DNA from: Haematobia irritans
Lineage: Eukaryota; Arthropoda; Insecta; Diptera; Muscidae
Length of the DNA stretch: 64,000 nt
Reading direction: 5' to 3'
NCBI RefSeq assembly: GCF_050003625.1
Contig: NC_134400.1
Location: 195,871,918 to 195,935,917, forward strand
Shown here: positions 4,020 to 64,000 of the stretch, piece by piece
Layout of the letters: the number at the start of each line of letters is the position of its first letter
Position numbering within the stretch: position 1 is the first letter of the stretch
The notes under the pieces: generated by a model
The model's input: the letters and a program-made list of their open reading frames with translations, nothing else
Databases searched by the model: none
Told to the model about the DNA's origin: nothing
Program-made: the position numbers and the translations under genes

Positions 4020-4027
4020 TTTTTTTT

Positions 4028-18830: not shown

Positions 18831-19927
18831 CGTACGTTTAGTATACCGATCGTCTTAGAATTAAATTCTGAGTCGATTTAACGATGTCCGTCTGTCTGTC
18901 TCTTCATGTATTTTTGTGCACAAAGTACAGGTCGCAGTTTAAGTCCGATCGTCCTCAAATTTAGTATAGGGTCGTTTTTTGGAACAACGACAATCGTTAT
19001 TGATTTTGGAAAAATCGGTTCAGATTTAGATATAGCTCCCATATATATCTTTCGTCCGAATTGCACTTATATGGCCTCAAAAGCTAGAGTTTTGCCGTGA
19101 TTTAGTTCAAATTTTGCACAAGGAGTACGTTTACTAGTATCGGTAAGTGTACCAAATTTGGTTGAAATCGGTTCAAATTTAGATATAGCTCCCATATATA
19201 TCTTTCGTCCGGTTTTTACTTATATGACATCAAAAGCCAGAGTTTTGCCTGATTTGCTTCAAATTTTGCACGAGAGGTACGTTTAACGGTGTCGTTATGT
19301 ATGCCAAATTTGGTTGAAATCGGTTCAGATTTAAATATAGCTCTCATATATATCTTTCGCCCGATTTACACTCATATGACCACGGGGCCAAAGTTGAAAT
19401 TTTGCAGAATTATTATTCTAGCTATGAATGCCAAATTTAGTCACAATCGGTTCAGATTATATATAGCTCCCATATATATGTACACCAGAATTGGGGAAAT
19501 ATCGTAGACTGTTTGATATTTTAGACCCATTTTCAATGGGAATTTCCTCCAATTGACTGGATAGTTTCCACAGAGAATATATTTAATATGATATTTAAGT
19601 GTGTCAAGTTTGATCTAATTTGGTTCAGATTTAGATAAAGCCTCCATATATTCGTTTTTCCGGTTTATACAAATATGGCCAAAATTTACACACTTTACAT
19701 AAAATTCTGTGATGATTTCCCCATATCTTAGTCATATCCTACACACCGCAATGCCGGAATTTCCACAGAACAGTTGAGTTTTAAATAAGGCTCCAAGTCG
19801 CCCGACTTGACCAAATAATAAAGGGTGATTTGTTAAGAGCTTGATAACTTTTTTTTAAAAAAAAACGCATAAAATTTGCAAAATCTCATCGGTTCTTTAT
19901 TTGAAACGTTAGATTGGTCCATGACAT

Positions 19928-36400: not shown

Positions 36401-38913
36401 GAAATAAAATCTTGACAAAAAAATTCTATAGAAATAAAATTTTGACAAAATTTTCTATATAAATAAAATTTTGACAAAATTTTTTATAGAAATAAAATTT
36501 TGAAAAATTTTTCTATAGAAATAAAATTTTGTCAAAATTTTCAATAGAAAAAAAATTTTGGCAAAATTTTCTATAGAAATAAAATCTTGACAAAAATTTC
36601 TATAGAAATAAAAATTTGACAAAATTTTCTATAGACATAAAATTTTGACAAAATTTTCTATAGAAAAAAAGTTTTGACAAAATTTTCTATAGAAATAAAA
36701 TTTTGACAAAATTTGCTATAGAAATAAAATTTTAACAAAATTTTCTATATAAATAAAATTTTGACAAAATTTTCTATAGAAATAAAATTTTGACGAAATT
36801 TTCTGTAGAAATAAAATTTTGACAAAATTTTCTATAGAAATAAAATTTTGACAAAATTTGCTATAGAAATAAAATTTTGACAACATTTTCTATAGAAATA
36901 AGATTTTGACAAAATTTTCTATAGAAATACAATTTTGACAAAATTTTCTATAGGAATAACATGTTGACACAATTTTCTATAGAAATAAAATTTTGACAAA
37001 ATTCTCTATAGAAATAAAATTTTGACAAAATTTTCTATAGAAATAAAATTTTGGAAAAATTTTCTATAGAAATAAAATCTTGACAAAAAAATTCTATAGA
37101 AATAAAATTTTGACAAAATTTTCTATATAAATAAAATTTTGACAAAATTTTTTATAGAAATAAAATTTTGAAAAATTTTTCTATAGAAATAAAATTTTGT
37201 CAAAATTTTCAATAGAAAAAAAATTTTGGCAAAATTTTCTATAGAAATAAAATCTTGACAAAAATTTCTATAGAAATAAAAATTTGACAAAATTTTCTAT
37301 AGACATAAAATTTTGACAAAATTTTCTATAGAAATAAAGTTTTGACAAAATTTTCTATAGAAATAAAATTTTGACAAAATTTGCTATAGAAATAAAATTT
37401 TAACAAAATTTTCTATATAAATAAAATTTTGACAAAATTTTCTATAGAAATAAAATTTTGACGAAATTTTCTGTAGAAATAAAATTTTGACAAAATTTTT
37501 TATAGAAATAAAATTTTGAAAAATTTTTCTATAGAAATAAAATTTTGTCAAAATTTTCTATAGAAAAAAAATTTTGGCAAAATTTTCTATAGAAATAAAA
37601 TCTTGACAAAAAATTTCTATAGAAATAAAAATTTGACAAAATTTTCTATAGAAATAAAATTTTGACAAAATTTTCTATAGAAATAAAATTTTGACAAAAT
37701 TTTCTATAGAAATAAAATTTTGACAAAATTTGCTATAGAAATAAAATTTTGACAGAATTTTCTATAGAAATAAAATTTTGACAAAATTTTCTATAGGAAA
37801 AAAATTTTGACTAAATTTGCTATAGAAATAAAATTTTGACAAAAATTTCTATAGAAGAAAAATTTTTGGCAAAATTTTCTATAGAAATAAAATTTTGACA
37901 AAATTATCTATAGAAATAAAATCTTGACAAAAAATCTCTATATAAATAAAATTTTGACTAAATTTTCTATAGAAATAAAATTTTGACTAAATTTTCTATA
38001 GAAATAAAATTTTGACAAAATTTCTGTAGGAATAACATGTTGACACAATTTTCTACAGAAGAAAAATTTTTGACAAAATTTTCTATAGAAATAAAATTTT
38101 AACAGATTTTTTTGTAGAAATAAAATTTTGACAAAATTTTTTATAGAAATAAAATTTTGAAAAATTTTTCTATAGAAATTAAATTTTTGATAAAAAATTC
38201 TATTGAAATAAAATTTTGACAAAATTTTCTATAGAAATACAACTTAAACAAAATTTCTGTAGGAATAACATGTTGACACAATTTTCTATAGAAATAAAAT
38301 TTTTAACAAAATTCTCTATAGAACTAAAATTAAGACAAAATTTTCTATAGAAATAAAATCTTGACAAAAAATTTCTATAGAAATAAAATCTTGACAAAAA
38401 ATTTCTATAGAAATAAAATTTTGACTAAATTTTCTATAGAAATAAAATTTTGACAAAATTTCTGTAGGAATAACATGTTGACACAATTTTCTACAGAAGA
38501 AAAATTTTTGACAAAATTTTCTATAGAAATAAAATTTTAACAGAATTTTTTGTAGAAATAAAATTTTGACAAAATTTTTTATAGAAATAAAATTTTGAAA
38601 ATTTTTTCTATAGAAATAAAAATTTGACAAAATTTTCGTTAGAAATAAAATTTTGACAAAATTTTCTATAGAAATAAAATTTTTAAAAAAAAATATCTAT
38701 AGAAATAAAATTTGGACAAAATTTTCTATAGCAATAAAATTTTGACAAATTTTTTTATAGAAATAAAATTTTGACAAAATTTTCTATAGCAATAAAATTT
38801 TGACAAAATTTTCTACAGAAATACAATTTTGACAAAATTTTCTATAGAAATACAATTTTGACGAAATTTCTGTAGGAATAACATGTTGACACAATTTTCT
38901 ATAGAAATCAAAT
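33408..38913. repeat. Largest 29-bp minisatellite array, with orientation switches
   Basis: About 190 units. Orientation is forward at 33408-33945, reverse at 33946-35690 and forward at 35691-38913. The reverse block and following forward block are mirror images (see 33941-37466). The first forward block (from 33515) repeats the beginning of the last one, with an offset of 2187 bp. Further direct repeats lie at 37976-38160 and 38420-38610. The array ends at the ribozyme element at 38922. Confidence 0.9.
33941..37466. repeat. Giant palindrome, arms about 1.75 kb, axis at 35690
   Basis: GTCAAAATTTTAGTTCTATAG (35660-35680) faces CTATAGAACTAAAATTTTGAC (35700-35720); the 19 bases between are palindromic except for the central base. 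Outward, rare variants match in mirrored order: GTAGAA against TTCTAC, TAGCAAATTTT, TTCCTACAG against CTGTAGGAA (twice, once with GTTGTTCC against GGAACAAC), TTTTTCC against GGAAAAA, ATGTCTATAG against CTATAGACAT, and TTTCGTC against GACGAAA at the outer end. The right arm has about one extra unit. Confidence 0.9.
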
Positions 38914-39510
38914 TTCGTTGTTGTTTTTTTATTGCAGCTTAAAACCCTACATTGACTAAACTACAAGTGTAGCTTAACCAACAGAGGAAAAGAATGTTTG
39001 TCAAATTTATTTGGGCAAAGCCCAATGCTTAAAGAACAAAACCAGCAATAACAAAACAGAACGAATGGAAAAAGAAGAGGAAGCACGCTCAAAAAAAAAA
39101 CAGCCAACTGAACTCAAATCGATGATTTGACAGTGGCATAGGAAAAGAGATATGTTTGTTTCGAATTTATTTCGGCATATGCCGGTTATCATACAAAACC
39201 TTTTTTCGGAAGGTTCAAGTGTGGTTCATTGTTGGGTTTAATGAACTGCCTGAATTTATTCTGATAATTGGTTGATAGTTTTGCTGCAAGTAGAGGATGC
39301 TGATGAGGAATGTGGTAATTCCGAAACGTGCGTCCATCCAACCATCTTGCAGTCTATAGGGCTTTGTCCAAATAAATTTGACAAACATTCTATTCTTTTC
39401 CTCTGTTGGTTAAGCTACAGTTGTAGTTTAGTCAATGTATGGTTTTAAGCTGCAATAAAAAACAACAACAATGCTTAAAGAACAAACCCAACAATAACAA
39501 AACAACACGA
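38914..39510 (+). mobile_element. Hammerhead-bearing retroelement, most intact copy
   Basis: An inverted tail piece at about 38926-39029 (minus orientation, TTGACTAAACTACAAGTG) is followed by a full plus-strand unit. CAATGCTTAAAGAACAAA starts the unit at about 39029 and recurs after it at about 39469, so the unit is about 440 bp. Order: AACAATAAC-type end, AAATCGATGATTTGAC, TTTTTCGGAAGGTTCAAG, the ribozyme, TTGCAGTCTATAGGG, TTGTAGTTTAGTCAATG and the end again. A complete unit plus an inverted end resembles Penelope-type organisation. There is no coding sequence. It is flanked on both sides by 29-bp array. Confidence 0.75.
39295..39339 (+). ncRNA. Hammerhead ribozyme, type I, intact core and all stems
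   Basis: Stem I is GGATG (39295-39299) with CATCC (39335-39339). CTGATGA lies at 39300-39306. Stem II is GGAATGTGGTAATTCC (39307-39322), five pairs with a 6-nt loop. GAA is at 39323-39325, and stem III is ACG/CGT around TG (39326-39333). The cleavage nucleotide is C39334, giving a GUC triplet. Every core position matches the hammerhead consensus. Predicted self-cleavage is after 39334. Confidence 0.85.
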
Positions 39511-39720
39511 AATCAAATTTCGACAAAATTTTCCATAGAAATAAAATTTTGACAAAATTTTCTATAAAAATGCAATTTTGACAAAATTTCTGTAGGAATA
39601 ACATGTTGACAAAATTTTCTATAGAAATAAAATTTCGACAAAATTTTCTATAGAAATAAAATTTTGACAAAATGTTCTATAGAAATAAAATTTCGACAAA
39701 ATTTTCTATAGAATTTCTGT
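39511..39720 (+). repeat. 29-bp array, left of the SINE
   Basis: Seven or so forward units, some with TTTCGACAAAA. It is interrupted at ATTTCTGTAGG by the SINE. Confidence 0.8.
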
Positions 39721-40027
39721 AGGTTAGGTTAGGTTAGGTGGCAGCCCGATGTATCAGGCTCACTTAGACTATTCAGTCCATTGTGATACCACATTGGTGA
39801 ACTTCTCTCTTATCACTGAGAGCTGCCCGATTCCATGTTAAGCTCAATGACAAAGGGACCTCATCTTTATAGCCGAGTACGAACGGCGTTCCACGTTGCA
39901 GTGAAACCACTTAGGGAAGTTTTGAAACCCTCAAAAAAACTTTTTGGTGTTCGGTCGAAGCAGGAATCGAACCCACGGCCTTGTGTATGCAAGGCGCGCA
40001 TGCTAACCATTGCACCACGGCGGCCCC
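39721..40027 (-). mobile_element. tRNA-derived SINE inserted in the array
   Basis: Read on the minus strand, it starts with a tRNA-like head: A-box-like TGGTGCAATGGTTAGC (plus 40003-40018) and B-box GGTTCGATTCC (plus 39963-39973). A body follows that contains GATAAGAGAGAAGTTCACC and TGAGCCTGATACATCGGGC. It ends in repeats of AACCT (plus-strand GGTTAGGTTAGGTTAGG). Outside, GTAGG and AATAACATG together restore a known array variant, so the insertion is clean. About 305 bp, with Pol III promoter boxes present. Confidence 0.8.
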
Positions 40028-41400
40028 AAATAACATGTTGACACAATTTTCTATAGAAATAACATTTTGACAAAATTTTCTATAGAAATAAACTTTTGAC
40101 AATTTTTTTTATAGAAACACAATTTTGGCAAAATTTCTGTAGGAATAACATGTTGACACAATTTTCTATAGAAATAAAATTTTGAAAAAATTTCTATAGA
40201 AATAAAATTTTGACAAAATTTTCTAAAGAAATAAAATTTCGATAAAACTTTCTATAGAAATAAAATTTTGACAAAATTTTCTATAGAAATAAAATTTTGA
40301 CAAAATTTTCTATAGCAATACAAATTTGACAAAATTTTCAATAGAAATACAAATTTGACAAAATTTTCTGTAGAAATAAAATTTTGACCAAATTTGCGAT
40401 AGAATTTAGCTTTTGACAAAATTTTCTATCGAAATAAAATTTTGACAAAATTGTTTAGAGAAATAAAATTTTGACAAAATTTTCTATAGAAATACAATTT
40501 TGACGAAATTTCTGGAGGAATAACATGTTGACACAATTTTCTATAGAAATAAAATTTTGATAAAATTTCTATAGAAATACAATTTTGACAAAAATTTCCA
40601 TAGAAATATAATTTTGACAAAATTTTCTATAGAATTAAAATTTTGACAAAATTTCCTATAGAAATAAAACTTTGATAACATTTTCATATAGAAATAAAAT
40701 TTTGACAAAATGACAGAAATATACAATTTTACAACATTTTCAATAGGAATAAAATTTTGACATCATTTTCAATAAAAATAAAATTTTTTATAATATTCCT
40801 CTCCAACTATGAGGTATTTCCCAAAATTTTTATAGAAATATAAAATTTTGACAAAATTTGTAAAGCAAATAAAATTTTGACAAAATTTTCTATAGAAATA
40901 AAATTTTGACAAAAAATTTCTATAGAAATAAAATGTTGACAAAATTTTCTATAGAAATAAAATTTTGACAAAATTTTTTATAGACATAAAATTTAAAAAA
41001 AAAAGTCTGTAGAATAAAATTTTGATAAAAATTTTCTACAGAAATAAAATTTTTTACAAAATTTTCTATAGAAATAAAATTTTGACAAAATTTTCTAAAG
41101 AAATAAAATTTGACAAAATTGTCTATAGAAATAAAATTTGGACAAAATTTTCGATAGAATTTAGATTTTGACAACATTTTCTGTATATAAATAAAATTTT
41201 GATAAAATTTTCTATAGGAATAAATTTTTTGACAAAATTTTCTGTAGAAATACAAATTTGACAAAATTTTCTGTAGAAATAAAATTTCGACCAAATTTTC
41301 TATAGAAATAAAATTTGGACAAAATTTTCGATAGAATTTAGCTTTTGACAAAATTTTCTATCGAAATAAAATTTGGAAAAAATTTTCTATAGAAATAAAA
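40028..41400 (+). repeat. 29-bp array, forward, right of the SINE
   Basis: About 47 units with several degenerate stretches. At about 40793-40825 the AATATTCCTCTCCAAC segment of the terminal module interrupts it. Confidence 0.85.
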
Positions 41401-41665
41401 TTTTCTTCGTCTTTTGTTTTTTATTGTTAGTTTGTACTTCAATCATATTTGTTGCTTTGGTCTCAGCTTTAAAACCATTGTGTTGACTAAACTACAAGAG
41501 TAGCATAACCAACAGAGAAAAAGAATGTTTGTCAAATATATTTGGGCAAAGCCGATAGACTGCAAGATGGTTGGATGGACGCACGTTTCTTTTCCGCTGT
41601 TGGTTAAGCTACTCTTGTAGTTTAGTCAACACAATGGTTTTAAAGCTGAGATCAAAACAACAACA
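41401..41665 (-). mobile_element. Hammerhead-bearing retroelement, truncated foldback copy
   Basis: The minus-strand part (41401-41590) runs from the element tail into the 3' half of the ribozyme and stops there. At 41590 the sequence turns round and gives the tail again on the plus strand (GTTGGTTAAGCTACTCTTG, TTTAGTCAACACAATGG, GCTGAGATCAAAACAACAAC). The two tails form an inverted repeat, both carrying the same ACTCTTG variant. Confidence 0.75.
41569..41589 (-). ncRNA. Hammerhead ribozyme remnant (3' half)
   Basis: The minus strand reads GAAACGTGCGTC and CATCCAACC, identical to the 3' half of the intact copy at 39295. CTGATGA and stem II are missing, so it cannot cleave alone. Confidence 0.7.
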
Positions 41666-42031
41666 AATAAAATTTTGACAAAATTTTCTATAGAAATAAA
41701 ATTTTGACAACATTTATTATATATGAAATTCTGACAAAATTTTTTAAAGAAAAAATTACAAAATTTTCTATAGAAATGAAGTTTTGACAAAATATAGAAA
41801 TATATGAAATTTTGACAAAAATTTTCTATAGAAATAAAATTTTGACAAAATTTTCTATAGAAATAAAATTTTGACAAAATTTTCTATAGAAATAAAATTT
41901 TGACAAAATTTTCTATAGAAATAAAATTTTGACAAAATTTTCTATAGAAATAAAATTTTGACAAAATTTTCTATAGAAATAAAATTTTGACAAAATTTTC
42001 TATAGAAATAAAATTTTGACAAAATTTTCTA
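41666..42031 (+). repeat. 29-bp array, forward
   Basis: About twelve units. The last seven are exact consensus copies in a row, the most uniform stretch seen. Confidence 0.9.
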
Positions 42032-43654
42032 TTTAATTAGAATTTAGTTAACGTTTTTCTTCATTTGTGTATTAGTCATTGCCATTTTACAAAATAACTT
42101 AATTTAAACTTTAAACGCAAAATAATTCATAATTTTCAATTTCGATATAAACACTTCAGATATATCACAATTAAGTACTTAATAGGCAAATCATAACCCC
42201 CAAGCCATAAAGAAAGCTATTGACACTAATAAATGTCGAGTTCACACCATTTTAAAAAGCGTTTGGATCAAATAATAAAGTAGTTTACATTTAACATTTC
42301 GTATACAAAAGGCATGTCGATATTTCTTTTAACTAAAGCAATGAATAGAATTACGGGGAAAATTTATGCATTTGACTAGCTGGGAGCCCTTAATCACTTT
42401 CAAGTGGATTAGGAAAAACCTCCCAGTAGACAAATTAAAAATTTGTTTTCGTCACTTCATGGTCATGTGTGATAATTGCGTTTTAGCTTTAATTTATTTT
42501 ATTTACGTAAAGGAAAATATTCGTTTTGCATTAAATGAAACAGAAAATTTTCCAAGCCTTAAATAAACCGAAGAAGAAAAAAAGAGATTCCTATTAAAGG
42601 TCATAAAATGCTTTTGTTATCACATCTCTCTCGCACTCACTTATGCACACACACACACACACACACGCATATATAGAGCCAAAAAATTTACACATGCATG
42701 CAAATGACCATGGGGACCGTTATTGGTTGAAATGCTACAGGTAGAGTTATGTGAATACAATGGCCTTCTCTCCCCACTCATCCTCTCACTCTCACTCTCT
42801 ATCTTTATGGTATGGTGAAATGAGAGAACAAATAACCCGAGTGTTGACTCCTGTTTTTGACATCTGTTTGACATACATTTTTACTCCCCACACAAAACCC
42901 AAAGCCATCATCCTCACTCGGTCACCATAAAGAGGCTGTTTCAACTGGACTTTAAATCGATATGGAATCATCATTGAATGCTAAAATTCAAATTAAAAAT
43001 AAAAACAGACAACAGACCATCACTTGTATTATAATAAGTGGTGAAACTTATCATCGTTGAATTTTTATGGAAATAATTGTTAATGCAGATTATTATTAAC
43101 CAATTATTTCCATAAATATTCCTTTTGAGGTTAATGATAGTCGTCCGCCGTAATAAACGAAAAACCAACTGCCACAAGCAAACAAAGGAACTCCACCTTG
43201 TTTTTGTTTTTTTTTTGTTGATGTCTTTCTAACATGAGCAGTTTGAAGCGATAATGTTTAAATCAATATATCTTTCAGGAACTTTATCGTGCCCCAGGTG
43301 GAGGGAGGATTATTATAACACACTTAATTTAAACAAAAAGCCAAAACACATATAATAATATTTATTAGTGAAAGAATAATCAGAGTTCATTACCTTCTAC
43401 TGGGGGATTGTTGGAGATATTTTTACACTCCAATAGGATTTTTTTTAAGATCTGCAAAACGAATTCACTAACCAGATCAAAATACGGAGAAAAGGCAAAG
43501 ATTCGCTAAAGCGAACATTTTTTCGAAATAATATAACGTGTACATTATTCGAGAAAAATTCGAGAAACAATTTAGAATGTTCGTTGTAGCGAAATTATTC
43601 TTTGTTCATGAAAGATATTAAGAAATCATTTCATTTCAAGAAATTGTTAAGTAC
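42032..43654. other. Unique interval with CA microsatellite, no gene recognised
   Basis: A CA repeat lies at about 42644-42667, and a CTCT-rich patch at about 42768-42800. A short inverted repeat near 43505-43605 (CGCTAAAGCGAACATT against AATGTTCGTTGTAGCG) may be a tiny foldback. The short frames have no recognisable domain. Confidence 0.5.
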
Positions 43655-43820
43655 GAGGGTTGCCTTCATATTTTTGGGGATTAGAGAACAAAAACAAACA
43701 TTAATCATCGAAAATAGATTTATTGTTTTTGTAAATGTTCCCCATTAAGTGTATAGATCACTTTTGCATTCGTTTAAACCATTTGTCGAAGCATTTTTAC
43801 CCCTCTGATTGAGTTATTAG
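43655..43820 (-). pseudogene. Transposase C-terminal relic
   Basis: The minus strand reads CFDKWFKRMQK, a stop, then SIHLMGNIYKNN and a second stop. WFKRMQKC near the end followed by NGEYF-like residues is familiar from C-termini of insect mariner-related transposases. The in-frame stop shows decay. The plus-strand end GAGGGTTGCCTTCATATTT would be the element's terminal part. No catalytic region is present. Confidence 0.5.
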
Positions 43821-43879
43821 AAAATGTTGTTAAAATGTTATTTCTATAATATTTTGTAAAAATTTTATTTCTATAGACA

Positions 43880-43997
43880 AATACATACATTTAAATATCA
43901 CTCGATCTGGACAGATTTTTATACACTTCTACAAAATCTATAGACTCAAAATTAAAGTCGTCTAATGCACTAGGATGGAAAACTATGTTAGTAAAAA
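43880..43997 (+). repeat. Duplicated piece of mini-me element E
   Basis: ACATACATTTAAATATCACTC through AATGCACTAGGATGGAAAAC matches 44132-44240 with several differences. It lies just outside the element's left end, so it derives from a neighbouring truncated copy. Confidence 0.7.
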
Positions 43998-43998
43998 A

Positions 43999-46034
43999 AC
44001 AAGTAAGGAAAGTCTGAAGTCGGGCGGGGCCGACTATATTATACCCTGCACCACATTGTAGATCTAAATTTTCGATACCATATCACATCCGTCAAATGTG
44101 TTGGGGGCTATATATAAAGGTTTGCCCCAAATACATACATTTAAATACCACTCGATCTGGACAGAATTTGATAGACTTCTACAAAATCTATAGACTCAAA
44201 TTTTAAGTCGGCTAATGCACTAGGGTGGAACACAATGTTAGTAAAAATCATTTAAATCTGAAGCAATTTTAAAGAAACTTCGCAAAAGTTTATTTATGAT
44301 TTATCGCTCGATATATATGTATTAGAAGTTTAGGAAAATTAGAGTAATTTTTACTCTAAGAACACACAAAAAAAAATGTTTCTGATTCAATCACCAAATT
44401 AATTGATCCAATTAATTTTTTAATTGAAATGTCTTCAATCACGAAAATGATAGTATCAATCACAGTTTTAATTGGGCATAGAAAAAATTCTTGATTAAAG
44501 AATTAATTGATTTTTTCAGCAAATTTCAATTAATTTTTTAATTGATTCAATTAAAAATTTAATTGATGTTGATTGCAAAACTCAATTAATTTATTAATTA
44601 AAAAAGGTAACTATTTTTAATTACTTTCTGAATTGACTTAGAGTTTTTATTTGGATTAACAAATCATTGTTTGAAATACATTTTTAATTAAAAATTAAAA
44701 AAAATCAGCACTTTTTTTAACTGAATAAGTCTTCCGAATTTGATTAAAAAGTTAATTGTATCAATTAATTTTTTAATTAAAAATTTTAAAATTTTCAATC
44801 ACTGGCTTAATTAACTTAATGTTTCTATCATGATTAAAAAGTTAATTGTATCAATTAATTTATTAATTGAAAACATTTTCAACTTCAATTAACTTTTTAA
44901 TTGGAAATATTTTGGTGATATTTTTTTCTGTGAAAATGTTGGTATTTTGACCATTTTTGTCGAAATCAGAAAAACATATATATGGGAGCTATATCTAAAT
45001 CTGAACCGATTTCAATCAAATTTGGCACACATGACTATATTACTAATTGCACTCCTAGTGCAAAATGTCAACCAAATTGGACCAAAACTCTGGCTTCTGG
45101 GGCCATATAAGCCCATATCGGGCGAAAAATATATATGGAAGCTATATCTAAATCTGAACCGATTTCAATCAAATTTGGCACACATGACTATACTACCAAT
45201 TGTACTCCTTGTGCAAAATTTAAAGCTAATCGGGATAAAACTCTAGCTTCTGGGTCCATATAAGTGCATATCGGACAAAAGATATATATGGGAGCTATAT
45301 CTAAATTTGAATTGATTTCAACCAAATTTGGTACGCATAGCTACAATGCTAAATCTACTCCCTGTGCAAAATTTCAACAAAATTGGACCAAAACTCTGGC
45401 TTTTAGGACCATATTAGTCTATATCGGGCGAAAGATATATATGGGAGCTATATCTAAATCTGAGCCGATTTCAATCAAATTTTGCACACTTGACTATACT
45501 ACTTATTGTACTCCTAGTGCAAAATTTCAACCAAATTCGGCCAAAAATCTGGCTTCTGGGGCCATATAAGTCCATATCGGGCGAAAGATATATATGGGAG
45601 CTATATCTAAATCTGAACCGATTTCAATAAAATATTGCACACTTGACTATACGACTAAGTGTTATGTTTGTACACAATTTCAAGCAAATCGGTATAAAAC
45701 TCTGGCTGCTGGGTCCATATTAGTGCATATCGGGCGAAAGATATATATGGGAGCTATATTTAAATCTGAACCTATTTCTTCCAAATTCAATAGGGTTATG
45801 TTCTGACCCAAAACAGGAACTTGTGGCAAATTTGAAGTCGATTGGACTAAAACTGCGACCTAGACTTTGATCACAAAAATGTGTTCACAAACAGACGGAT
45901 GGACGGACAGACGGACATGGCTATATCGACTCAGGAGCCCATCCTGAGCATTTTTGCCAACGACACCATGTGTCTATCTCGTCTCATTCTGGGTGTTGCA
46001 AACATATGCACTAACTTATAATACCCTGTTCTAA
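43999..46034 (+). mobile_element. Mini-me-like element E
   Basis: It starts ACAAGTAAGGAAAGTCTG with the hairpin AGTCGGGCGGGGCCGACT and TATTATACCCTGCACCAC. It carries a nested AT-rich MITE (44365-44937), then about six tandem 153-bp units (GAISKSEPI in translation). The ACGGACAGACGG tract (45893-45920) and a TATAATACCCTGTTC end follow. It is the same type as D but on the plus strand. Frames of about 100 codons arise from the units. Confidence 0.75.
44365..44937. mobile_element. AT-rich MITE nested in element E
   Basis: The ends are CACAAAAAAAAATG with GATTCAATCACCAAA at the left and the partial mirror TTTGGTGATATTTTTTTCTGTG at the right. The interior is built from many AATTAATTTTTTAATTG motifs in both orientations. 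There is no coding potential. Confidence 0.55.
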
Positions 46035-46448
46035 TATCGAAAAGTGATAAAGCGTATATTGTGTAGACGTCGCAGAAAATCTCAAGCAAATTGTAAGTCC
46101 AATTTTTAAACTTCAGGGCTAGGGAAGGCCCCTCTTCCCTTCCGAATACCACAAAATCAGATATCCATTATAATAATATAGCCTACTCCACATCCTCGGT
46201 AAATAAATTGGAAAAGTTTAATTGCTTCACGGTATGTTCTTTATAAACAAAAGTCGTATAAAGGGGTGGTCCACCTCCGCGACCAAATATTGAAAATTGT
46301 CTAGACATCACCCCTAACCGTCCTTGGAAATTTCCACCAAATCGGAGAACTTTGGTCCAATTTTGAAAAAGTCGGGCAATGGGTTTTAGAACTTACGTCT
46401 CCAGTCTAACTCTTTAGAGTATTTAGTTTGTTTAGGCTTTCTTCAATA

Positions 46449-46679
46449 CACTGAGAGAAGATTTTTCTTTTCTCTTGAGGAACGAAATTTCAGACAAGCA
46501 AGACGCTAAAAAGATTCCTTAAAATCAACAAATAAAAATAGATTACAGACAATTGTTGGATCATTTGTGATAAACTCGAGTTTATCTGCTCTACAAAAAA
46601 AAAAAAATACTTTGTAAAAAAGGGGGATTTTTTTTTGTTTAAACTTTCGTTCCTGAGGAAAGTATTATTTCTTTCGGTG
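46449..46679. mobile_element. TA-MITE, 231 bp
   Basis: The ends CACTGAGAGAAGA and the mirrored CTTTCGGTG are flanked by TA (46447-46448 and 46680-46681). The inverted repeats extend about 45 bp and share GAGGAACGAAATTT against AAACTTTCGTTCCTGAGG. It is too short to encode anything. Confidence 0.7.
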
Positions 46680-46681
46680 TA

Positions 46682-47254
46682 CTACTTACTGACTTTCTTA
46701 CATAAATAATGATCCATGTTGCTTATTAGTGGCATTTATATTTTAATGAAATAGCATTATTATTTTGGAATCAATGTTAAAACCTTAAAATTAAACTTTA
46801 ATATATTTATTTCAGTTTATTCATTATTTTTCAGTGTGTGGGGTACTCTCTAGCTGTCTATGATCTAAAATATCAAACATGAATATATGGTAGACATCAA
46901 AAACCACATTCGAACACGAGTATTTTTGTTTTTTTTTTGCTAAATTTGCATTTTGTTTTTTATTTGGGCAAAATGTTAATCTATTTAAAGAATATTTTTC
47001 AAATACCAAAATAACTCGATAGTATTTATGTTTTAGTAGGCCAATGTACCCAAGGGGATTTTTCCAGTGACTTACCTTCAAATGTTTCATATTAATTGAG
47101 AAGCTCAATAAAGGGGGAAGGGGCAAGATTTCTAGATTCAGAGACCTGGAGGTGGAATTGCTTTGTTAGAAAATAAAAATTATCATAAGATGAAACATGT
47201 GACGTCAAGACAGGCATATTTAACACTCTTTGATAATGATATGAATAAAAAAGA
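46682..47254. other. Unique AT-rich interval
   Basis: A 100-codon minus-strand frame (46824-47126) has no recognisable domain and is low in complexity. Nothing else is supported. Confidence 0.5.
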
Positions 47255-49480
47255 TACTATAGAAAGTAAACTTGGACAAAATTTTCTATAGAAATACAAT
47301 TTTGACAAAATTTTCTATAGAAATAAAATTTTGACAAAATTTTCTATAGAAATAAAATTTTGACAAAATTTTCTATAGAAATAACATTTTAACAAAATTT
47401 TCTATAGAAATAAAATTTTGACAAAATTTTTTATAGAAATAACAATTGAACAAAATTTTCTATAGAAATAAAATGTTGACAAATTGTTCTATAGTAATAA
47501 AATTTTGTCAAAATTTTCTATAGAAATAAAATTTTGTCAAAATTTTCTATAGAAATAAAATTTTGACAAAATATTCTATAGAAATAAAATTTTGACAAAA
47601 TTTTTTATAGAAATAAAATTTTGACAAAATTTTCTATAGAAATAAAATTTTAACAAAATTTTCTAACGAAATAAAGTTTTGACAAAATTTTCTACAGAAA
47701 TAAAATTTTGACAAAATATTCTATAGAAATAAAATTTTGACAAAATTTTCTATAGAAATAAAATTTTGACAATGTTTTCTATAGTAATAAAATATTGACA
47801 ATATTTTCTATAGTAATAAAATGTTGACAATAATTTTTATAGTAATAAAATTTTGTCAAAATTTTTTATAGAAATAAAATTTTGACAAAATTTTCTATAG
47901 AAATAAAATGTTGACAATATTTTCTATAGTAATAAAATGTTGACAATATTTTCTATAGAATAAAATTTTGACAATATTTTCTATAGTAATAAAATGTTTA
48001 CAATATTTTCTATAGTAAAAAAATTTTGACAATATTTTATATAGCAATAAAATTTTGACAAAATTTTCTATAGTAATAAAATTTTGTCAAAATTTTTTAT
48101 AGTAATAAAATTTTGACAATATTTTCTATAGAACTAAAATTTTGACAAAATATTCTATAGAAATTAAATTTTGGTAAAATTTTCTATAGTAATAAAACGT
48201 TGACAAAATTTTCTATAGAAATAAAATTTTGACAATATTTTCTATAGTAATCAAATTTTGACAATATTTTCTATAGTAACAAAATGTTGACAAAATTTAC
48301 TATAGAAATAAAATTTTGACAATATTTTCTATAGAACTAAAATTTTGACAAAATATTCTATAGAAATTAAATTTTGGTAAAATTTTCTATAGAAATAAAA
48401 CGTTGACAAAATTTTCTATAGTAACAAAATGTTGACAAAATTTTCTATAGAAATAAAATTTTGACAATATTTTCTATAGTAATAAAATTTTGACAATATT
48501 TTCTATAGTAATAAAATGTTGACAATAGTTTCTATAGCAATAAACTTTTGACATAATTTCCTGTAGTAAAAAAATGTTGACAAATTTTTCTAGAGAAATA
48601 AAATTTTAACAACATTTTCTATAGAAATAAAATTCTACAAAATTTTCTATTGTAATAAAATTTTGACAATATTTTCTATAGTAATAAAATTTTGACAATG
48701 TTTTCTATAGTAATAAAATTTTGACAATGTTTTCTATAGTAATAAAATTTTGACAAAATTTTCTATAGAAATAAAATTTTGACAATATTTTCTATAGTAA
48801 TAAAATTTTGACAATATTTTCTATAGTAATAAAATGTTGACAAAATTTTCTATAGAAATAAAATTTTGACAATATTTTCCATAGTAATAAAATGTTGACA
48901 ATATTTTCCATAGTAATAAAATTTTGACAATATTTTCTATGGAAATAAAATGTTGGCAAAATTTTCTATAGAAATAAAATTTTGACAATATTTTCTATAG
49001 TAATAAAATGTTGACAATATTTTCTATAGTAATAAAATGTTGACAAAATTTTCTATAGAAATAAAATGTTGACAATATTTTCTATAGTAATAAAATTTTG
49101 ACAATGTTTTCTATAGTAATAAATTTTTGACAATATTAGCTATAGTAATAAAGTTTTGACAATATTTTCTATAGAAATAACATTTTGACAATATTTTCTA
49201 TAGAAATTTTTAATTTTGATAAAAATTTGACAAAAAAAATAAAATTTTGACAAAATTTTCTATAGAAATAGAATTTTAACAAAATTTTCTAACGAAATAA
49301 AATTTTGACAAAATTTTCTATAGTAATAAAATATTGTCAAAATTTTCTATAGAAACAAACTATTCTATAGAAATAAAATTTTGACAATATTTTCTATAGA
49401 AATAAAATTTTGACAAAATTTTCTAAAGATATAAAATTTTGATAAAATTTTCTTTAGAAATAATATTTTGATCAAATGAC
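47255..49480 (+). repeat. 29-bp minisatellite array, forward, with a local subfamily
   Basis: About 76 units. From about 47760 many carry the variants TTGACAATATTTTC and TAGTAATAAAATG, rare elsewhere. A 203-bp higher-order repeat is visible (GAACTAAAATTTTGAC at 48131 and 48334, about seven units apart). Confidence 0.9.
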
Positions 49481-50107
49481 CAAGAATGACGTTTTTATAC
49501 CCATCTTATATTGAATCAAATTTACAGTTGATAGTATTTACATAACTATTGTCAATTTAATTTAATTTGTTTTTTTTTTAGAATTATATGTGTCACAAAT
49601 GATTTTGTTTAATTTCCTTTAAATGTATTTGCCCGTCTGCTAGAAATTGGATGTATTTAATTTATAATTGCAGACATTTACTTCCACATAGTAAATTAAT
49701 CATAAATAAACTCATACAATTCGTCTTTACGTCAACTAATTATAATTGACAATTAACACTTAAAATGAACAATTTTTAACACGTGGTATTTGTTCGGGTA
49801 ACCACAAACAAACTAGTTCAGATTTAGGGGAATCTTAGTGAATGTGATGTGGAGTTTCTTGGAAAAATTGAATGACACATGTGACGATGAATTAATAAAC
49901 GCGTAATGTATGTGAAGTAAGCAGAACACATGTTCAGTAGCAAGATATAATGAGGGGCAATTACTTCTTATAGTCATGGTGTTGCTTTGCTTCCACAAAG
50001 TGGCCAGTTATCGAATTTAGTTTTCTACGACAAGAAACCGTAATTCGTACCAAAGGTAGCCAATTTGAACAAATTTAATATTATTCCAAAATAGGACATT
50101 ATTTCTG
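49481..50107. other. Unique AT-rich interval
   Basis: No gene, RNA or repeat recognised. A 61-codon minus-strand frame at 49813-49998 is not convincing. Confidence 0.5.
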
Positions 50108-51405
50108 ACATTTCCATAGAAAATGTTGTCAAAATTTTAATTCTATAGTATATTTTGTAAGAATTTTATTCCTATAGAAAATTTTGTCAAAATTTTATTT
50201 CTATAGAAAATTTTGTCCAATTTTTATTTCTATAGAACATTTTGTCAAAATTGAATTTCTATAGAAAGTTTTGTCAAAATTTTATATATTTAGAAAATTT
50301 TGTCACAATTTTATTTCTATAGCAAATTTTGTCCAAATTTTATTTCTATAGAAAATTTTGTCCAAATTTTATTTCTATAGAAAATTTTGTCACAATTTTA
50401 TTTCTATAGCAAATTTTGTCAAAATTTTATTTCTATAGAAAATTTTGTCAAGATTTTATTTCTATAGAAAATTTTGTCAAAATTTTATTTCTATAGAAAA
50501 TTTTGCCAAAAATGTATTTCTATAGAAAATTTTGTCAAAAATTTATTTCTATAGAAAATTTTGTCAAAATTTTATTTCTATAGCAAATTTTGTTAAAATT
50601 TTGTTTCTATTGAAAATTTTGTCAAAATTTTATTACTATAGAAATTTTGTCAAAAATTTATTTCTATAGAAAATTTTGTCAAAATTTTATTTCTTTAGAA
50701 AATTTTGTCAAAATTTTATTTCTTTAGAAAATTTTGTCAAAATTTTATTTCTTTAGAAAATTTTGTCAAAATTTTATTTTTTTAGAAAATTTTGTCAAAA
50801 TTTTATTTCTTTAGAAATTTTGTCAAAATTTTATTTCTTTAGAAAATTTTGTCAAAATATTATTTCTTTAGAAAATTTTGTCAAAATTTTATTTCTATAG
50901 AAAATTTTGTCAAAATTTTATTTCTATAGAAAATTTTGTCAAAATTTTATTTCTATAGAAAATTTTGTCAAAATGTTATTTCTATAGAAAATTTTGTCAA
51001 AATTTTATTTCTATAGAAAATTTTGTCAAAATTTTATTTCTATAGAAAAATTTGTCAAAATTTTTTTCTATAGAAAAATTTGTCAAAATTTTTTTTCTAT
51101 AGAAAATTTTGTCACAATTTTATTTCTATAGCAAATTTTGTCAAAATTTTATTTCTAAAGGAAAATTTGGTCAAAATTTTATTACTATAGAAAATTTTGT
51201 CAAAAACTTATTTCTATAGAAAATTTTGTCAAAATTTTATTTCTTTAGAAAATTTTGTCAAAATTATATTACTATAGAAATTTTTGTCAAAAATTTATTT
51301 CTATAGAAAATTTTGTCAAAATTGTATTTCTTTAGAAAATTTTGTCAAAATTTTATTTCTGTAGAAAATTTTGTCAAAGTTTACTTTCTATAGTATCTCT
51401 CTTAT
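50108..51405 (-). repeat. 29-bp minisatellite array, reverse
   Basis: About 45 units. A run of eight near 50680-50880 shares the variant TTCTTTAGAAAA, a local expansion. The ribozyme element follows directly. Confidence 0.9.
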
Positions 51406-51407
51406 TG

Positions 51408-51742
51408 AAATTTGTAAATTTGTTTATGCAGTAGCCGACTATCAATCCTTGTTTCGGAAGGTTCAAGCGTTGTTCACTTTGGGTTGAGCGAATTACCCGA
51501 ATTTATTCTGATAATTGGTTGATAGTTCTGCTGCATGTAGAGGATGCTGATGAGGAATGTGGTAATTCCGAAACAACTGTACATCCAACCATCTTGCAGT
51601 CTATAGGGTTTTGCCCAAATAAATTTGACAATCATACTTTTCCTTTGCTGGTTAAGCTACACTTGTAGTTTAGTCAGTGCATGGTTTTAAACTGACAACA
51701 ATAATGATTGAAGAGAAACCAACAATAACAAATAAAACGAAA
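51408..51742 (+). mobile_element. Hammerhead-bearing retroelement, single unit
   Basis: AGTAGCCGACTATCAATCC, TTTCGGAAGGTTCAAGCG, GAATTACCCGAATTTATTC, the ribozyme core, CAACCATCTTGCAGTCTATA, TTGTAGTTTAGTCAGTGC and AACAATAACAAATAAAACG. There is no inverted tail. It sits between two reverse-orientation arrays, as if inserted into one array. Confidence 0.75.
51542..51586 (+). ncRNA. Hammerhead ribozyme, type I, compensated stem III
   Basis: GGATG (51542-51546), CTGATGA (51547-51553), stem II GGAATGTGGTAATTCC (51554-51569), GAA (51570-51572), stem III ACA/TGT around AC (51573-51580), A51581 as cleavage nucleotide (GUA triplet), CATCC (51582-51586). The third stem III pair is A-U here and G-C at 39295, so pairing is kept while the bases change. 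Confidence 0.85.
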
Positions 51743-54885: not shown

Positions 54886-56035
54886 CGTTAAAATTATGTT
54901 AAGTCCCATAAAGTTAGATTTAAATTTTAAGTACATAGATTTTGTAGAAGTATATACAATTTTGTCTTAATCGATTCAGATTCAAATTCATGCATATGGA
55001 AATATAAACCTTTATATAGCTCGCAACAAATTTAAAGGATTTGAGATAGTATCAATAATTTTGGTCCACAAATACATATACTGTTGGTATCTTCTCATAT
55101 TATGATGGGTATTTATATCATTATTTTCTTTATTGAACATTGCCCTAAATTTGAAATATAGAGTTCAATTGACATCTAATGCGAAATTAAGACCTTTTTT
55201 TCACACATAAATAAATACCACTTACGGTACCCCCACAATAGAACTACAAATTAGTGGTATTAAAATGAGATTTAGTTATATTACCCGGAGTCGACTCCGG
55301 AGTCGGAGTCGAGCTGATGAAAAATGCTGGAGTCGGAGTCGAGCAAAATTGGCTCGACCCCACAGCCCTGGTTTCAACTATGTCTATTTTTTTTTTTTAA
55401 CCAAATGACCTTACAAATATGTTAAAATCAGAAGAAAATTTTAATACAATTCCCAAAAAAAAACAATGACATACGTCGTTTTCAATACACCAAAAAAGAG
55501 AACCCTCTAGGGCACTACAGATTATTTAAGTCTATTTTTGATAAATTTTCACAATAAGTGATCGATTTTCCCCATAAAACTGTTTACCTTTTTCCTATGT
55601 TTAGGCAATGGAATCAATTATCATACTGATATGTTAAACTAAGGGAAACATTGAACTTTTAACGATGTAATAACTAACTAAAATATTTCTTAATGTCATT
55701 TGTTTCCATTTGTGATGAGAGGAGAAACAGGTGGACGACCCTTATGGCAGCGTAAATATTACAAAATTCAATTTACAATCGATGTAATCAGTAAGTATTG
55801 TTAAACCTTTCACTTCAGCTCACACAGACAAAAAAAAAACAATGTTATCATCAAACTGATGCTAAATTTAACTTATTTTATTTATTGCAAAAATATATGA
55901 ATTTGTTTAATTGAATAAATATCCCTAAGTTCCATGAAAAATTTCCGTCACCTTCAAAAATGACCCAAAAAATTGTCATACTAGTGATGTAGGTACCATT
56001 ACTACCAAATTTTAAAAATATTTCGCATACTGGTT

Positions 56036-56560
56036 GAGTGGACAGCGACCGGTGAACCGTCTCCGAAGCGTGGAAAGACTCAAAAGTCCGCTGGCAAAGT
56101 AATGGCCTCTGTTTTTTGGGATGCGCATGGAATAGGTTTTATCGATTACCTTGAGAAGGGAAAAACCATCAACAGTGACTATTATATGGCGTTATTGGAG
56201 CGTTTGAAGGTCGAAATCGAAGCAAAACGGCGCCATATGAAGAAGAAAAAAGTGTTGTTCCACCAAGACAACGCACCGAGCCAGAAGTCATTGAGAACGA
56301 TGGCAAAAATTCATGAATTGCACTTCGAATTGCTTCCCCATCCACCGTATTCTCCAGATCTGGCTCCCAGCGACTTTTTCTTGTTCTCAGACCTCAAAAG
56401 GATGCTCGCAGGGAAAAAATTTGGCTGCAATGAAGAGGTGATCGCCGAAACTGAGGCCTATTTTGAGGCAAAACCGAAGGAGTGCTACCAAAATGGTATC
56501 AAAAAATTGGAAGGTCGTTATAATCGTTGTATCGCTCTTGAAGGGAACTATGTTGAATAA
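56036..56560 (+). pseudogene. Mariner transposase, irritans type, 5'-truncated, copy 1
   Basis: The coding match starts near EWTATGEPSPK at 56036 and continues in frame through VMASVFWDAHG to NRCIALEGNYVE and a stop at 56558-56560. Counting from the ATG at 56102, the second catalytic Asp is D56 (FHQDNA) and the third D91 (APSDFF), 34 residues apart, the DD34D spacing. YSPDLAPSDF is intact. The first catalytic Asp (in the TGDE-type motif) and the whole DNA-binding domain are missing, so the fragment cannot be an active transposase. The remaining frame has no stop. The full family length is about 350 residues; about 175 remain. Confidence 0.9.
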
Positions 56561-56600
56561 TAAAAACGAATTTTGACAAAAAAATGTGTTTTTCTTTGCT

Positions 56601-56627
56601 AGACCGGGGACTTATCAGTCAACCTGT
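56601..56627 (+). repeat. Mariner right terminal inverted repeat
   Basis: AGACCGGGGACTTATCAGTC followed by AACCTGT and TA (56628-56629). It closely resembles the Himar1-type terminal repeat. The left terminal repeat was lost with the 5' part. Confidence 0.85.
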
Positions 56628-57293
56628 TACAAAAAAAAAAATAATAAACCAATTTTTCACAAAAGGTTAGCGTCACTGTACGAATGTTACCTGATAATGA
56701 TAGATTCCAAAATGAAGACATATGAAGGGATTGTTATTCTGCTGCTGTTTTCTTTCTTTATACACCATCACGAACATTGATAGACTTATTGTTTGTTATT
56801 TATGCCCAATAATTTTGAAAAAAAAAAAAGAAAAATTTTCTCACTAATTTAAAATAATAAATATTTTATTTGTTATTTATTATATTCTTTTACTATATTA
56901 TTTTGTAACAATCTATCCGTATACCATAACAACGCGATTCCATCTAAAAAAAACAACCCACGCGCAAATATATCGATTACATCGATGACAGGTATCGATT
57001 ACAAGTAGATAAAAGAAATATAGGAAAATTTCTTATATTCTAACAAGCGTGTCTACTTAAGTTTTAAAAGGATTGAATACTTCTTAGTACGAATGAACTG
57101 AAATATTTTTCTATGCCAAGTGTTATTCGCATGTATGGTAAGCTTTCTATAATAAAGGAAGTCAGAGTTATCATTTTATAAGAAATTTTACTAAATTTGA
57201 GGAAACTTGGTTTTCGTTCGGTTTTTGTTTATTTTTTCGAATGCTTTTTTTTATCAGTGAATAAAATGTTCTTGTTCAGTAGTAAATTCTTAT

Positions 57294-61500: not shown

Positions 61501-61653
61501 AAATTATAGTCAAAAGAGTCAAAAAAATGTCGACAACAGAAATAAAATTCTAGTGTTCCCCATTCACATTACGTTGAATGTTTATTCCTAAGAAGCATTC
61601 ACTCCCTTTACCGTAGGAACATTCTGTTAACAGGTGATTTTTTTTTTTTGTGA
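61501..61653. other. Unique sequence between array and duplicated segment
   Basis: It contains ATTCACTCCCTTTACCGTAG and a poly-T run near 61640. Nothing recognised; it marks the left boundary of the second duplication copy. Confidence 0.4.
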
Positions 61654-62743
61654 AGAAGTATATACAATTTTGTCTTAATCGATTCAGATTCAAATTCATG
61701 CATATGGAAATATAAACCTTTATATAGCTCGCAACAAATTTAAAGGATTTGAGATAGTATCAATAATTTTGGTCCACAAATACATATACTGTTGGTATCT
61801 TCTCATATTATGATGGGTATTTATATCATTATTTTCTTTATTGAACATTGCCCTAAATTTGAAATATAGAGTTCAATTGACATCTAATGCGAAATTAAGA
61901 CCTTTTTTTCACACATAAATAAATACCACTTACGGTACCCCCACAATAGAACTACAAATTAGTGGTATTAAAATGAGATTTAGTTATATTACCCGGAGTC
62001 GACTCCGGAGTCGGAGTCGAGCTGATGAAAAATGCTGGAGTCGGAGTCGAGCAAAATTGGCTCGACCCCACAGCCCTGGTTTCAACTATGTCTATTTTTT
62101 TTTTTTTAACCAAATGACCTTACAAATATGTTAAAATCAGAAGAAAATTTTAATACAATTCCCAAAAAAAAACAATGACATACGTCGTTTTCAATACACC
62201 AAAAAAGAGAACCCTCTAGGGCACTACAGATTATTTAAGTCTATTTTTGATAAATTTTCACAATAAGTGATCGATTTTCCCCATAAAACTGTTTACCTTT
62301 TTCCTATGTTTAGGCAATGGAATCAATTATCATACTGATATGTTAAACTAAGGGAAACATTGAACTTTTAACGATGTAATAACTAACTAAAATATTTCTT
62401 AATGTCATTTGTTTCCATTTGTGATGAGAGGAGAAACAGGTGGACGACCCTTATGGCAGCGTAAATATTACAAAATTCAATTTACAATCGATGTAATCAG
62501 TAAGTATTGTTAAACCTTTCACTTCAGCTCACACAGACAAAAAAAAACAATGTTATCATCAAACTGATGCTAAATTTAACTTATTTTATTTATTGCAAAA
62601 ATATATGAATTTGTTTAATTGAATAAATATCCCTAAGTTCCATGAAAAATTTCCGTCACCTTCAAAAATGACCCAAAAAATTGTCATACTAGTGATGTAG
62701 GTACCATTACTACCAAATTTTAAAAATATTTCGCATACTGGTT

Positions 62744-63268
62744 GAGTGGACAGCGACCGGTGAACCGTCTCCGAAGCGTGGAAAGACTCAAAAGTCCGCT
62801 GGCAAAGTAATGGCCTCTGTTTTTTGGGATGCGCATGGAATAGGTTTTATCGATTACCTTGAGAAGGGAAAAACCATCAACAGTGACTATTATATGGCGT
62901 TATTGGAGCGTTTGAAGGTCGAAATCGAAGCAAAACGGCGCCATATGAAGAAGAAAAAAGTGTTGTTCCACCAAGACAACGCACCGAGCCAGAAGTCATT
63001 GAGAACGATGGCAAAAATTCATGAATTGCGCTTCGAATTGCTTCCCCATCCACCGTATTCTCCAGATCTGGCTCCCAGCGACTTTTTCTTGTTCTCAGAC
63101 CTCAAAAGGATGCTCGCAGGGAAAAAATTTGGCTGCAATGAAGAGGTGATCGCCGAAACTGAGGCCTATTTTGAGGCAAAACCGAAGGAGTGCTACCAAA
63201 ATGGTATCAAAAAATTGGAAGGTCGTTATAATCGTTGTATCGCTCTTGAAGGGAACTATGTTGAATAA
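62744..63268 (+). pseudogene. Mariner transposase, irritans type, 5'-truncated, copy 2
   Basis: The same truncated frame as at 56036-56560, with ATG at 62810 and stop at 63266-63268. The only coding difference seen is residue 74 counted from that ATG: His in copy 1, Arg here (HELRFELL). The truncation point is identical, so the loss of the 5' half preceded the duplication. D56 and D91 are present; the first catalytic Asp is missing. Confidence 0.9.
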
Positions 63269-63308
63269 TAAAAACGAATTTTGACAAAAAAATGTGTTTT
63301 TCTTTGCT

Positions 63309-63335
63309 AGACCGGGGACTTATCAGTCAACCTGT
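63309..63335 (+). repeat. Mariner right terminal inverted repeat, copy 2
   Basis: Identical to 56601-56627 and followed by TA at 63336-63337. Confidence 0.85.
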
Positions 63336-64000
63336 TACAAAAAAAAAAATAATAAACCAATTTTTCACAAAAGGTTAGCGTCACTGTACGAATGTTACCT
63401 GATAATGATAGATTCCAAAATGAAGACATATGAAGGGATTGTTATTCTGCTGCTGTTTTCTTTCTTTATACACCATCACGAACATTGATAGACTTATTGT
63501 TTGTTATTTATGCCCAATAATTTTGAAAAAAAAAAAGAAAAATTTTCTCACTAATTTAAAATAATAAATATTTTATTTGTTATTTATTATATTCTTTTAC
63601 TATATTATTTTGTAACAATCTATCCGTATACCATAACAACGCGATTCCATCTAAAAAAAACAACCCACGCGCAAATATATCGATTACATCGATGACAGGT
63701 ATCGATTACAAGTAGATAAAAGAAATATAGGAAAATTTCTTATATTCTAACAAGCGTGTCTACTTAAGTTTTAAAAGGATTGAATACTTCTTAGTACGAA
63801 TGAACTGAAATATTTTTCTATGCCAAGTGTTATTCGCATGTATGGTAAGCTTTCTATAATAAAGGAAGTCAGAGTTATCATTTTATAAGAAATTTTACTA
63901 AATTTGAGGAAACTTGGTTTTCGTTCGGTTTTTGTTTATTTTTTCGAATGCTTTTTTTTATCAGTGAATAAAATGTTCTTGTTCAGTAGTAAATTCTTAT

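Follow-up and report, generated by a model that had tools for sequence, protein, structure and literature searches.

The window analysed here, a stretch of 64,000 nucleotides from the fly Haematobia irritans (NCBI RefSeq assembly GCF_050003625.1, contig NC_134400.1, positions 195,871,918 to 195,935,917 of the forward strand), contains four hammerhead motifs, and we propose, with a probability of roughly 0.7, that they are the ribozymes carried by a non-autonomous retroelement akin to the retrozymes of metazoans, without long terminal repeats (non-LTR), that is mobilised in trans by a Penelope-type enzyme. The motif lies in a 432-442-nt repeat unit that occurs singly, in tandem and in inverted pairs. 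Insertions of this unit end at two AC-rich internal sites, with one of each used in most of the scorable inverted pairs sampled, the DNA they enter is AT-rich, and one insertion in the window is bounded by a 10-bp duplication. By analogy with known elements, these scars suggest that the unit borrows Penelope-type copying machinery.

The four 45-nt motifs are present where the first-pass annotation of this DNA had placed them, with identical spacing, and each contains a complete hammerhead core. The pattern CTGATGA-N(6-30)-GAAA-N(3-25)-CATCC matched the window 4 times, and at least 4 matches were obtained in 0/100 dinucleotide shuffles. When a strict type I descriptor was applied (5-bp stem I, CUGANGA, 4-bp stem II, GAA, 2-bp stem III, H17), it matched only the motifs at 39295 and 51542, which possess CUGANGA...GAA, stems I-III in type I order and H17 in full, and a match of any kind was seen in 3/400 Markov sequences of the same size. 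The motifs at 4190 and 13738 fail this descriptor because of a C-U mismatch at 15.2-16.2, which the annotation had reported as common to both. Genomic copies fall into two subfamilies, with stem III ACGUGCGU (A) and ACAGCUGU (B), each self-complementary over all 8 nt. The hammerhead features of the window are:

39284 to 39294, plus strand: 5' strand of outer stem I (CTGCAAG) and internal loop TAGA, predicted from sequence to pair with 39340-39352
39295 to 39339, plus strand: type I hammerhead, stem III of subfamily A (ACGTGCGT), with C at 39334 as H17 and cleavage predicted at 39334/39335
39340 to 39352, plus strand: internal loop AACCAT and 3' strand of outer stem I (CTTGCAG), likewise predicted
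51542 to 51586, plus strand: type I hammerhead of subfamily B, stem III changed at one position (ACAACTGT), with A at 51581 as H17
4190 to 4234, minus strand: hammerhead of subfamily B, 16.2 changed from G to T (ACAGCTTT)
13738 to 13782, plus strand: hammerhead with ACAGCTTT, outer stem I lost

The cleavage points proposed earlier, after 39334 and 51581, are consistent with this predicted anatomy. Stem I is longer than had been seen, since GGATG/CATCC is followed by an internal loop, TAGA/AACCAT, and then by a further helix, CTGCAAG/CTTGCAG, which is complete at 39295, has one mismatch at 51542 and at 4190, and is lost at 13738, where the 5' flank is unrelated to the unit. To judge from sequence only, the internal loop and the hexaloop GTGGTA sit where candidate partners for a loop 1-loop 2 contact belong. 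The full core, the three stems, the extended stem I with its internal loop and the more than 11,000 genomic copies support the assignment of the motifs to the type I hammerheads, with self-cleavage predicted, although they fall short of the Rfam cutoff, as considered below.

A larger mobile unit around the motifs had not been seen by the first-pass annotation and was found here. Exact copies of the 28-nt core number 11,499 in the 1.17-Gb host assembly, and those of a flank segment 11,372; the reversed control gave 0 in both cases. The loci that we sampled all lie within the first 17.2 Mb of contig C1. For the flank segment, 98 of the 100 places listed were in fetched DNA, and once identical contexts had been merged and one match at a locus end dropped, 94 distinct contexts were left. 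Among these listed matches the ribozyme was full and ungapped in 78 and truncated or gapped in 16, and none of the 16 stood out as ending exactly at the cleavage site. The unit measures 441-442 nt in subfamily A and 432-433 nt in subfamily B, has a GC content of 0.36-0.38, and forms four dimers and one trimer, with units 432-442 nt apart, at loci chosen for close spacing. No LTR pattern was found in the mapped inserts. The longest frame in the A unit encodes 136 aa, in antisense, and is interrupted in the B unit; at E 1 Pfam gave no match for this frame or for a 55-aa frame in sense, and no reverse transcriptase or endonuclease was recognised when the frames of the unit were compared with Pfam. 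A scan of viral contigs gave 0 matches to the hammerhead core.

To describe the insertions, positions in the unit were counted from the predicted cleavage site. In a sample of 88 inserts with both ends in hand, the 3' end falls inside unit positions 121-195 in 81 and elsewhere in 7, and the 5' ends are dispersed. The 3' ends peak at two sites ~42 nt apart, P1 (~127-137) and P2 (~170-182), in both subfamilies, and in both they overlap the 60-nt stretch of the unit that is richest in A+C. The insertions mapped in the window are:

38907 to 38916, no strand: left copy of the target-site duplication ATCAAATTTC, an exact 10-mer
38917 to 39026, minus strand: left arm of the 39295 insertion, inverted, with its outer end at unit 131 (P1)
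39023 to 39511, plus strand: direct right arm of the 39295 insertion, subfamily A, from unit 131 round to 173 (outer end P2)
39512 to 39521, no strand: right copy of the target-site duplication ATCAAATTTC
51416 to 51741, plus strand: 5'-truncated insertion, subfamily B, from unit 267 to 174 (P2)
4026 to 4497, minus strand: insertion of one unit and ~42 nt, subfamily B, from unit 130 round to 174 (P2), with a 45-nt direct repeat at its ends
13416 to 13549, minus strand: inverted arm 5' of the 13738 copy
13552 to 13942, plus strand: direct copy, subfamily B, from unit 260 to 170 (P2), with ~70 nt of unrelated sequence directly before the ribozyme
41412 to 41589, minus strand: inverted arm whose outer end is at unit 169 (P2), containing the 3' half of a hammerhead (GAAACGTGCGTC/CATCC)
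41589 to 41666, plus strand: direct arm of the 41412 insertion, outer end at unit 131 (P1)
6060 to 6119, minus strand: unit fragment ending at unit 126 (P1)

On the plus strand of the window ATCAAATTTC occurs twice only, once at each junction of the 39295 insertion, and thus marks a 10-bp duplication; duplications of 8-11 bp were found at several other loci. Insertions that start at P1 and run to P2 occur twice in the window, and we make no claim that this is a rule because only 2/88 starts lie within unit 126-150. Inserts exceeding one unit make up 20 of the 88, and in 14 of these head and tail are at least 97% identical over aligned positions (with 110 gap columns in locus L009), while the remaining 6 include old inserts and locus L114 at 0.49, a value that we do not trust. 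Identity between loci has a median of 89% and a maximum of 100%. The likeness of head and tail fits copying round a circle, and equally well the copying of a multimeric transcript.

Head-to-head abutting copies were present in 35 of 79 flank-selected loci. Distinct abutting inverted junctions (loci L001-L123) are tail-outward in 38 of 39 cases, and from their sequence both target strands appear to have been primed. Both arms belong to the same subfamily in 37/38 pairs. For 37 tail-outward pairs both outer ends were available, and in 23 of these both ends are at P1 or P2 and can be scored. The arms use different sites in 20 of the 23, 10 in each order, compared with a shuffled mean of 11.7 (permutation P 0.0008). 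Within the window, the pairs at 38917-39511 and 41412-41666 have one P1 and one P2 end each, and the pair at 13416-13942 has an outer end elsewhere.

The DNA into which the units are inserted is AT-rich. The 12 nt beyond the 3' end are 83% A+T, compared with 71% for the loci, and contain AAT or ATT in 70/88 inserts, compared with 61% at random (P 0.00016). Direct repeats at the ends of 25 inverted-pair insertions have a mean of 6.3, versus 4.1 with shuffled partners (0/300 shuffles). Arrays of a 29-bp minisatellite adjoin 62/88 3' ends, versus 57/124 stretches taken 400-520 nt away (P 0.0004), and also adjoin 24/88 5' ends, though many of these lie against an inverted arm. That the minisatellite is part of the unit was considered and rejected, and its adjacency was read as target choice, because 26/88 units end in other DNA.

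In the copies compared, the ribozyme outside stem III is better conserved than the rest of the unit. When one copy of each subfamily was compared (locus L010 for A, L009 for B), the ribozyme, counted with inner and outer stem I and without stem III, differs at 1/56 positions versus 50/361 elsewhere (P 0.007), and among the four window copies 0/38 core positions are variable, stem III again left out, versus 64/254 outside (P 7e-5). Stem III with H17 behaves differently, since A and B differ at 5/7 positions, yet stem III is self-complementary in both. Selection on RNA folding, which the first-pass annotation had proposed because two copies kept stem III paired with different bases, finds partial support in this pattern, but not in the covariation then cited. 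Of the pairs described at 39295 and 51542, two stand; the third, G-C or A-U, on which the covariation rests, is one that a monomer probably cannot form, as it would close a 2-nt loop. As a monomer, the main variants have 2 bp in stem III, capped by a 4-nt loop. Nor does 51542 represent an independent solution; by comparison with genomic copies it looks like a decayed subfamily B (ACAGCUGU to ACAACUGU).

Since stem III is self-complementary in both main forms, its third and fourth pairs would fit a dimer, and pairing between two ribozymes is therefore the likely context of stem III, judging from sequence and from related systems. The calculated self-duplexes of ACGUGCGU, with two G-U pairs, and ACAGCUGU have energies of -8.8 and -11.1 kcal/mol, and the variants at 51542 and 4190/13738, which are not self-complementary, have -1.0 and -3.7 kcal/mol. 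A further stem III, ACGGCCGT, found at two more loci, is likewise self-complementary, and most other variants are single changes that destroy self-complementarity, as decay would give. The 78 full ribozymes comprise 40 of type ACGTGCGT-C and 22 of type ACAGCTGT-A, with one or two each of the others; stem III variants include ACGUGCGU, ACAGCUGU, ACAACUGU and ACAGCUUU. Since few of the changes are independent, pairing in dimers is suggestive and not proven.

The insertions resemble those of Penelope-like elements, which have two adjacent AC-rich internal start sites and a 30-40-bp tail, cut at ATT in AT-rich DNA and have both strands extended (PMC11167929), and for which the available part of PMC3846280 describes an inverted pseudo-LTR, a tail optionally on one arm and, in the cases given, duplications of 8-10 bp. 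As described there, these elements share with the unit studied here the tandem and inverted head-to-head layout, the optional one-arm tail of 30-40 bp, the AC-rich internal starts, the AT-rich target, the ~10-bp duplication and a type I hammerhead upstream; that hammerhead was not required for insertion in vitro, as one of these two papers reports (PMC11167929/PMC3846280). Our unit differs in having no recognised reverse transcriptase or endonuclease, in its start sites at ~130 and ~175 nt after the cleavage site, and in its fuller hammerhead, with a helix III of 2 bp in the main variants where the minimal Penelope-type hammerhead, in the descriptions available, has none.

With metazoan non-LTR retrozymes, as presented in the available sections of PMC7229834, the unit shares a type I hammerhead, short tandem repeats, low GC, the absence of LTRs, an invertebrate-type 2-bp stem III with a tetraloop, and a self-paired predicted circle (z -4.2 and -5.7 here). 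Tandem repeats of 150-450 bp and, when present, target duplications of >4 bp, which characterise metazoan retrozymes, are both found, although the 432-442-nt unit is slightly above the 170-400 nt that those sections give for circles. The tail-outward inverted pairs and the two AC-rich end sites are differences, and the words 'inverted' and 'AC-rich' are absent from the main text of PMC7229834. Hammerheads of Aedes aegypti with a palindromic stem III are also dipteran, lie in an interspersed repeat and have a loop III that can pair fully in a dimer; in the excerpts of PMC3088659 their stem III helix could reach 10 bp, compared with 8 bp here, the likeness being one of description and not of sequence, and one Aedes motif was inactive when tested as a monomer. 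The satellite hammerheads of newt and axolotl (PMC7229834 and PMC6155905, both in part) have a weak stem III, a self-complementary tetraloop and dimeric action, which is proposed here, and differ from the main variants here, whose stem III has a second pair. Pairing between two ribozymes is reported for newt repeats (PMC6155905) and proposed for Aedes (PMC3088659) in what is available of these papers. A literature search of limited coverage gave nothing on a hammerhead ribozyme in Haematobia; for Musca, Stomoxys, Glossina and Aedes the term was absent among the matches listed, which says little, and for retrozymes in Diptera a single paper was listed, on circles like those of hepatitis delta virus.

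Penelope elements have been named a strong candidate for the mobiliser of retrozymes, in the parts available of PMC7229834 (section 17) and PMC7761336, on the grounds that the two coexist, are arranged in tandem and both contain hammerheads. What is new here is the presence of Penelope-type scars at retrozyme insertions, for which the accessible text of the retrozyme papers holds no such evidence. The two AC-rich end sites, the inverted pairs and the one-arm tail form a direct and testable link between retrozymes and Penelope, and the more than 11,000 genomic copies supply the numbers for testing it.

From these features we infer transcription, cleavage, RNA circles and the identity of the enzyme, in a cycle of four steps. 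Genomic copies would be transcribed, the hammerhead would cut at H17/CATCC, either as a single unit whose stem III has 2 bp or as paired units with an 8-bp palindromic stem III helix, and the ends would be ligated, so that RNA circles probably form. A Penelope-type reverse transcriptase with a GIY-YIG endonuclease, acting in trans, would then cut AT-rich DNA on both strands; copying would start inside the RNA at the AC-rich P1 and P2, usually with one strand per site, and would pass the ribozyme junction, sometimes going round more than one unit. We also put forward, tentatively and at somewhat less than even odds, the broader idea that Penelope-type enzymes integrate the retrozymes of animals by a reaction with two sides, in which a single RNA or a paired one provides two adjacent AC-rich starts, a different one for each cut strand, so that just one arm receives a tail. 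In Penelope elements the optional tail might then be the footprint of a division of labour between strands, and the palindromic stem III might reflect cutting by paired units as well. If true, the use of different sites by the two arms would constrain any model of Penelope integration.

Several results weigh against the retrozyme reading or parts of it. The first-pass annotation had stated that its claim would be refuted if no covariance model matched above threshold, and in form this is what was obtained, since the Rfam search (release 15) gave no match at the curated threshold anywhere in the window; RF00163 did not reach its gathering cutoff, the best score being 16.1 bits against a cutoff of 34 (E 0.13, one 91-nt stretch), and a search by E-value of two 251-nt window stretches found no hammerhead. 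We do not take this as decisive because, up to E 10, Rfam reports no hammerhead in loci L009, L010 and L013 either, though these carry intact tandem copies, and the test is of low power for this family. The lowest-energy fold of a 69-nt stretch pairs the core otherwise in both subfamilies, at -22.8 (A) and -22.1 (B) kcal/mol versus -16.1 and -16.8 kcal/mol for the hammerhead, and the ribozyme would therefore need to be held by tertiary contacts, a protein or a dimer. The block invariant between A and B extends past the ribozyme, by ~40 nt upstream and ~30 nt downstream, and conservation is therefore not specific to it. As to the circle, some pairs of different loci are also identical across the 200 nt compared (maximum 1.0), and most of these structures would also arise if an uncut multimeric transcript were copied. 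The one-each rule was scored with intervals (118-150 for P1, 163-190 for P2) set after the end positions were seen, and at least one outer end lies at neither site in 14/37 inverted pairs. Among 16 later loci, 4/4 pairs are tail-outward and the rule is kept in 1/2 scorable pairs, a sample too small to confirm it, and one of the two Penelope papers (PMC11167929/PMC3846280) reports that the strands do not differ in start site, a finding that lends the rule no support but is not a test of it within single insertions. Derived changes are common to the arms of one insertion in 33% of cases and shared between loci in 15%, which is in favour of one template but not decisive, because the arms share only 33%. 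Finally, 6/25 inverted-pair insertions have no direct repeat of at least 4 nt, and array DNA inflates some of the others.

The Rfam result, the more stable competing fold and the width of the conserved block would also be expected if the repeat were conserved for another reason and only happened to look like a hammerhead, with no cutting. We regard such a chance or dead motif as very improbable, given that the strict descriptor matches only 3/400 simulated windows, that stem III and H17 changed at 5/7 positions between subfamilies while stem III stayed self-complementary in both, and that the self-complementary ACGGCCGT recurs at two further loci. The main rival is that the unit is a retrozyme moved by the APE-type machinery of long interspersed elements (LINEs), with A-rich ends due to poly-A-like priming. 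It would explain the A-rich 3' ends, 5' truncation and AT-rich targets, and twin priming by LINEs gives inverted pairs as a known by-product. It is nonetheless unlikely, as the ends are AC-rich and not pure A and fall at two discrete sites ~42 nt apart instead of forming one tail, a tail is present on just one arm in 20/23 scorable pairs, and inverted pairs, in 35/79 loci, are commoner than is usual for twin priming.

A somewhat less probable reading than mobilisation by LINEs is that the copies represent fragments of the pseudo-LTRs of an autonomous Penelope-like element, with coding copies elsewhere, and not an independent retrozyme. It shares the Penelope-type scars with the retrozyme reading, and type I hammerheads do occur in Penelope pseudo-LTRs (PMC7761336, in the part available). 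The tandem units of 432-442 nt, however, close on themselves, the 136-aa antisense frame of the A unit is interrupted in B and has no Pfam match at E 1, and Penelope hammerheads are minimal, without helix III and loop contacts as far as the available text of PMC6155905 and PMC7761336 goes, in contrast to the 2-bp helix III and extended stem I seen here.

Other repeats were also observed. A 389-nt palindrome at 13349-13737, with arms ~91% alike and outer ends foreign to the unit, stands directly upstream of the 13738 ribozyme, and another dispersed sequence (ACAAGTATATAC...) lies next to the 3' ends of retrozyme copies at more than one locus (L010:1159-1230, window 6040-6060). The 29-bp minisatellite (AAAATTTTATTTCTATAGAAAATTTTGTC), whose core TTTCTATAGAAA is itself palindromic, marks ~40% of the window (322/799 tiles) in many arrays across 207-61501, and partly builds a ~990-nt palindrome at 107-1096 that is 96.5% self-complementary. 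Separate arrays with ~153-bp units occupy 4752-5638, 10172-12162, 19012-19380, 23263-24033 and 44972-45778. Two copies of a 2.35-kb segment, 99.7% identical, lie at 54940-57293 and 61646-64000 and carry a transposase frame of the mariner type (Pfam Transposase_1, DDE_3).

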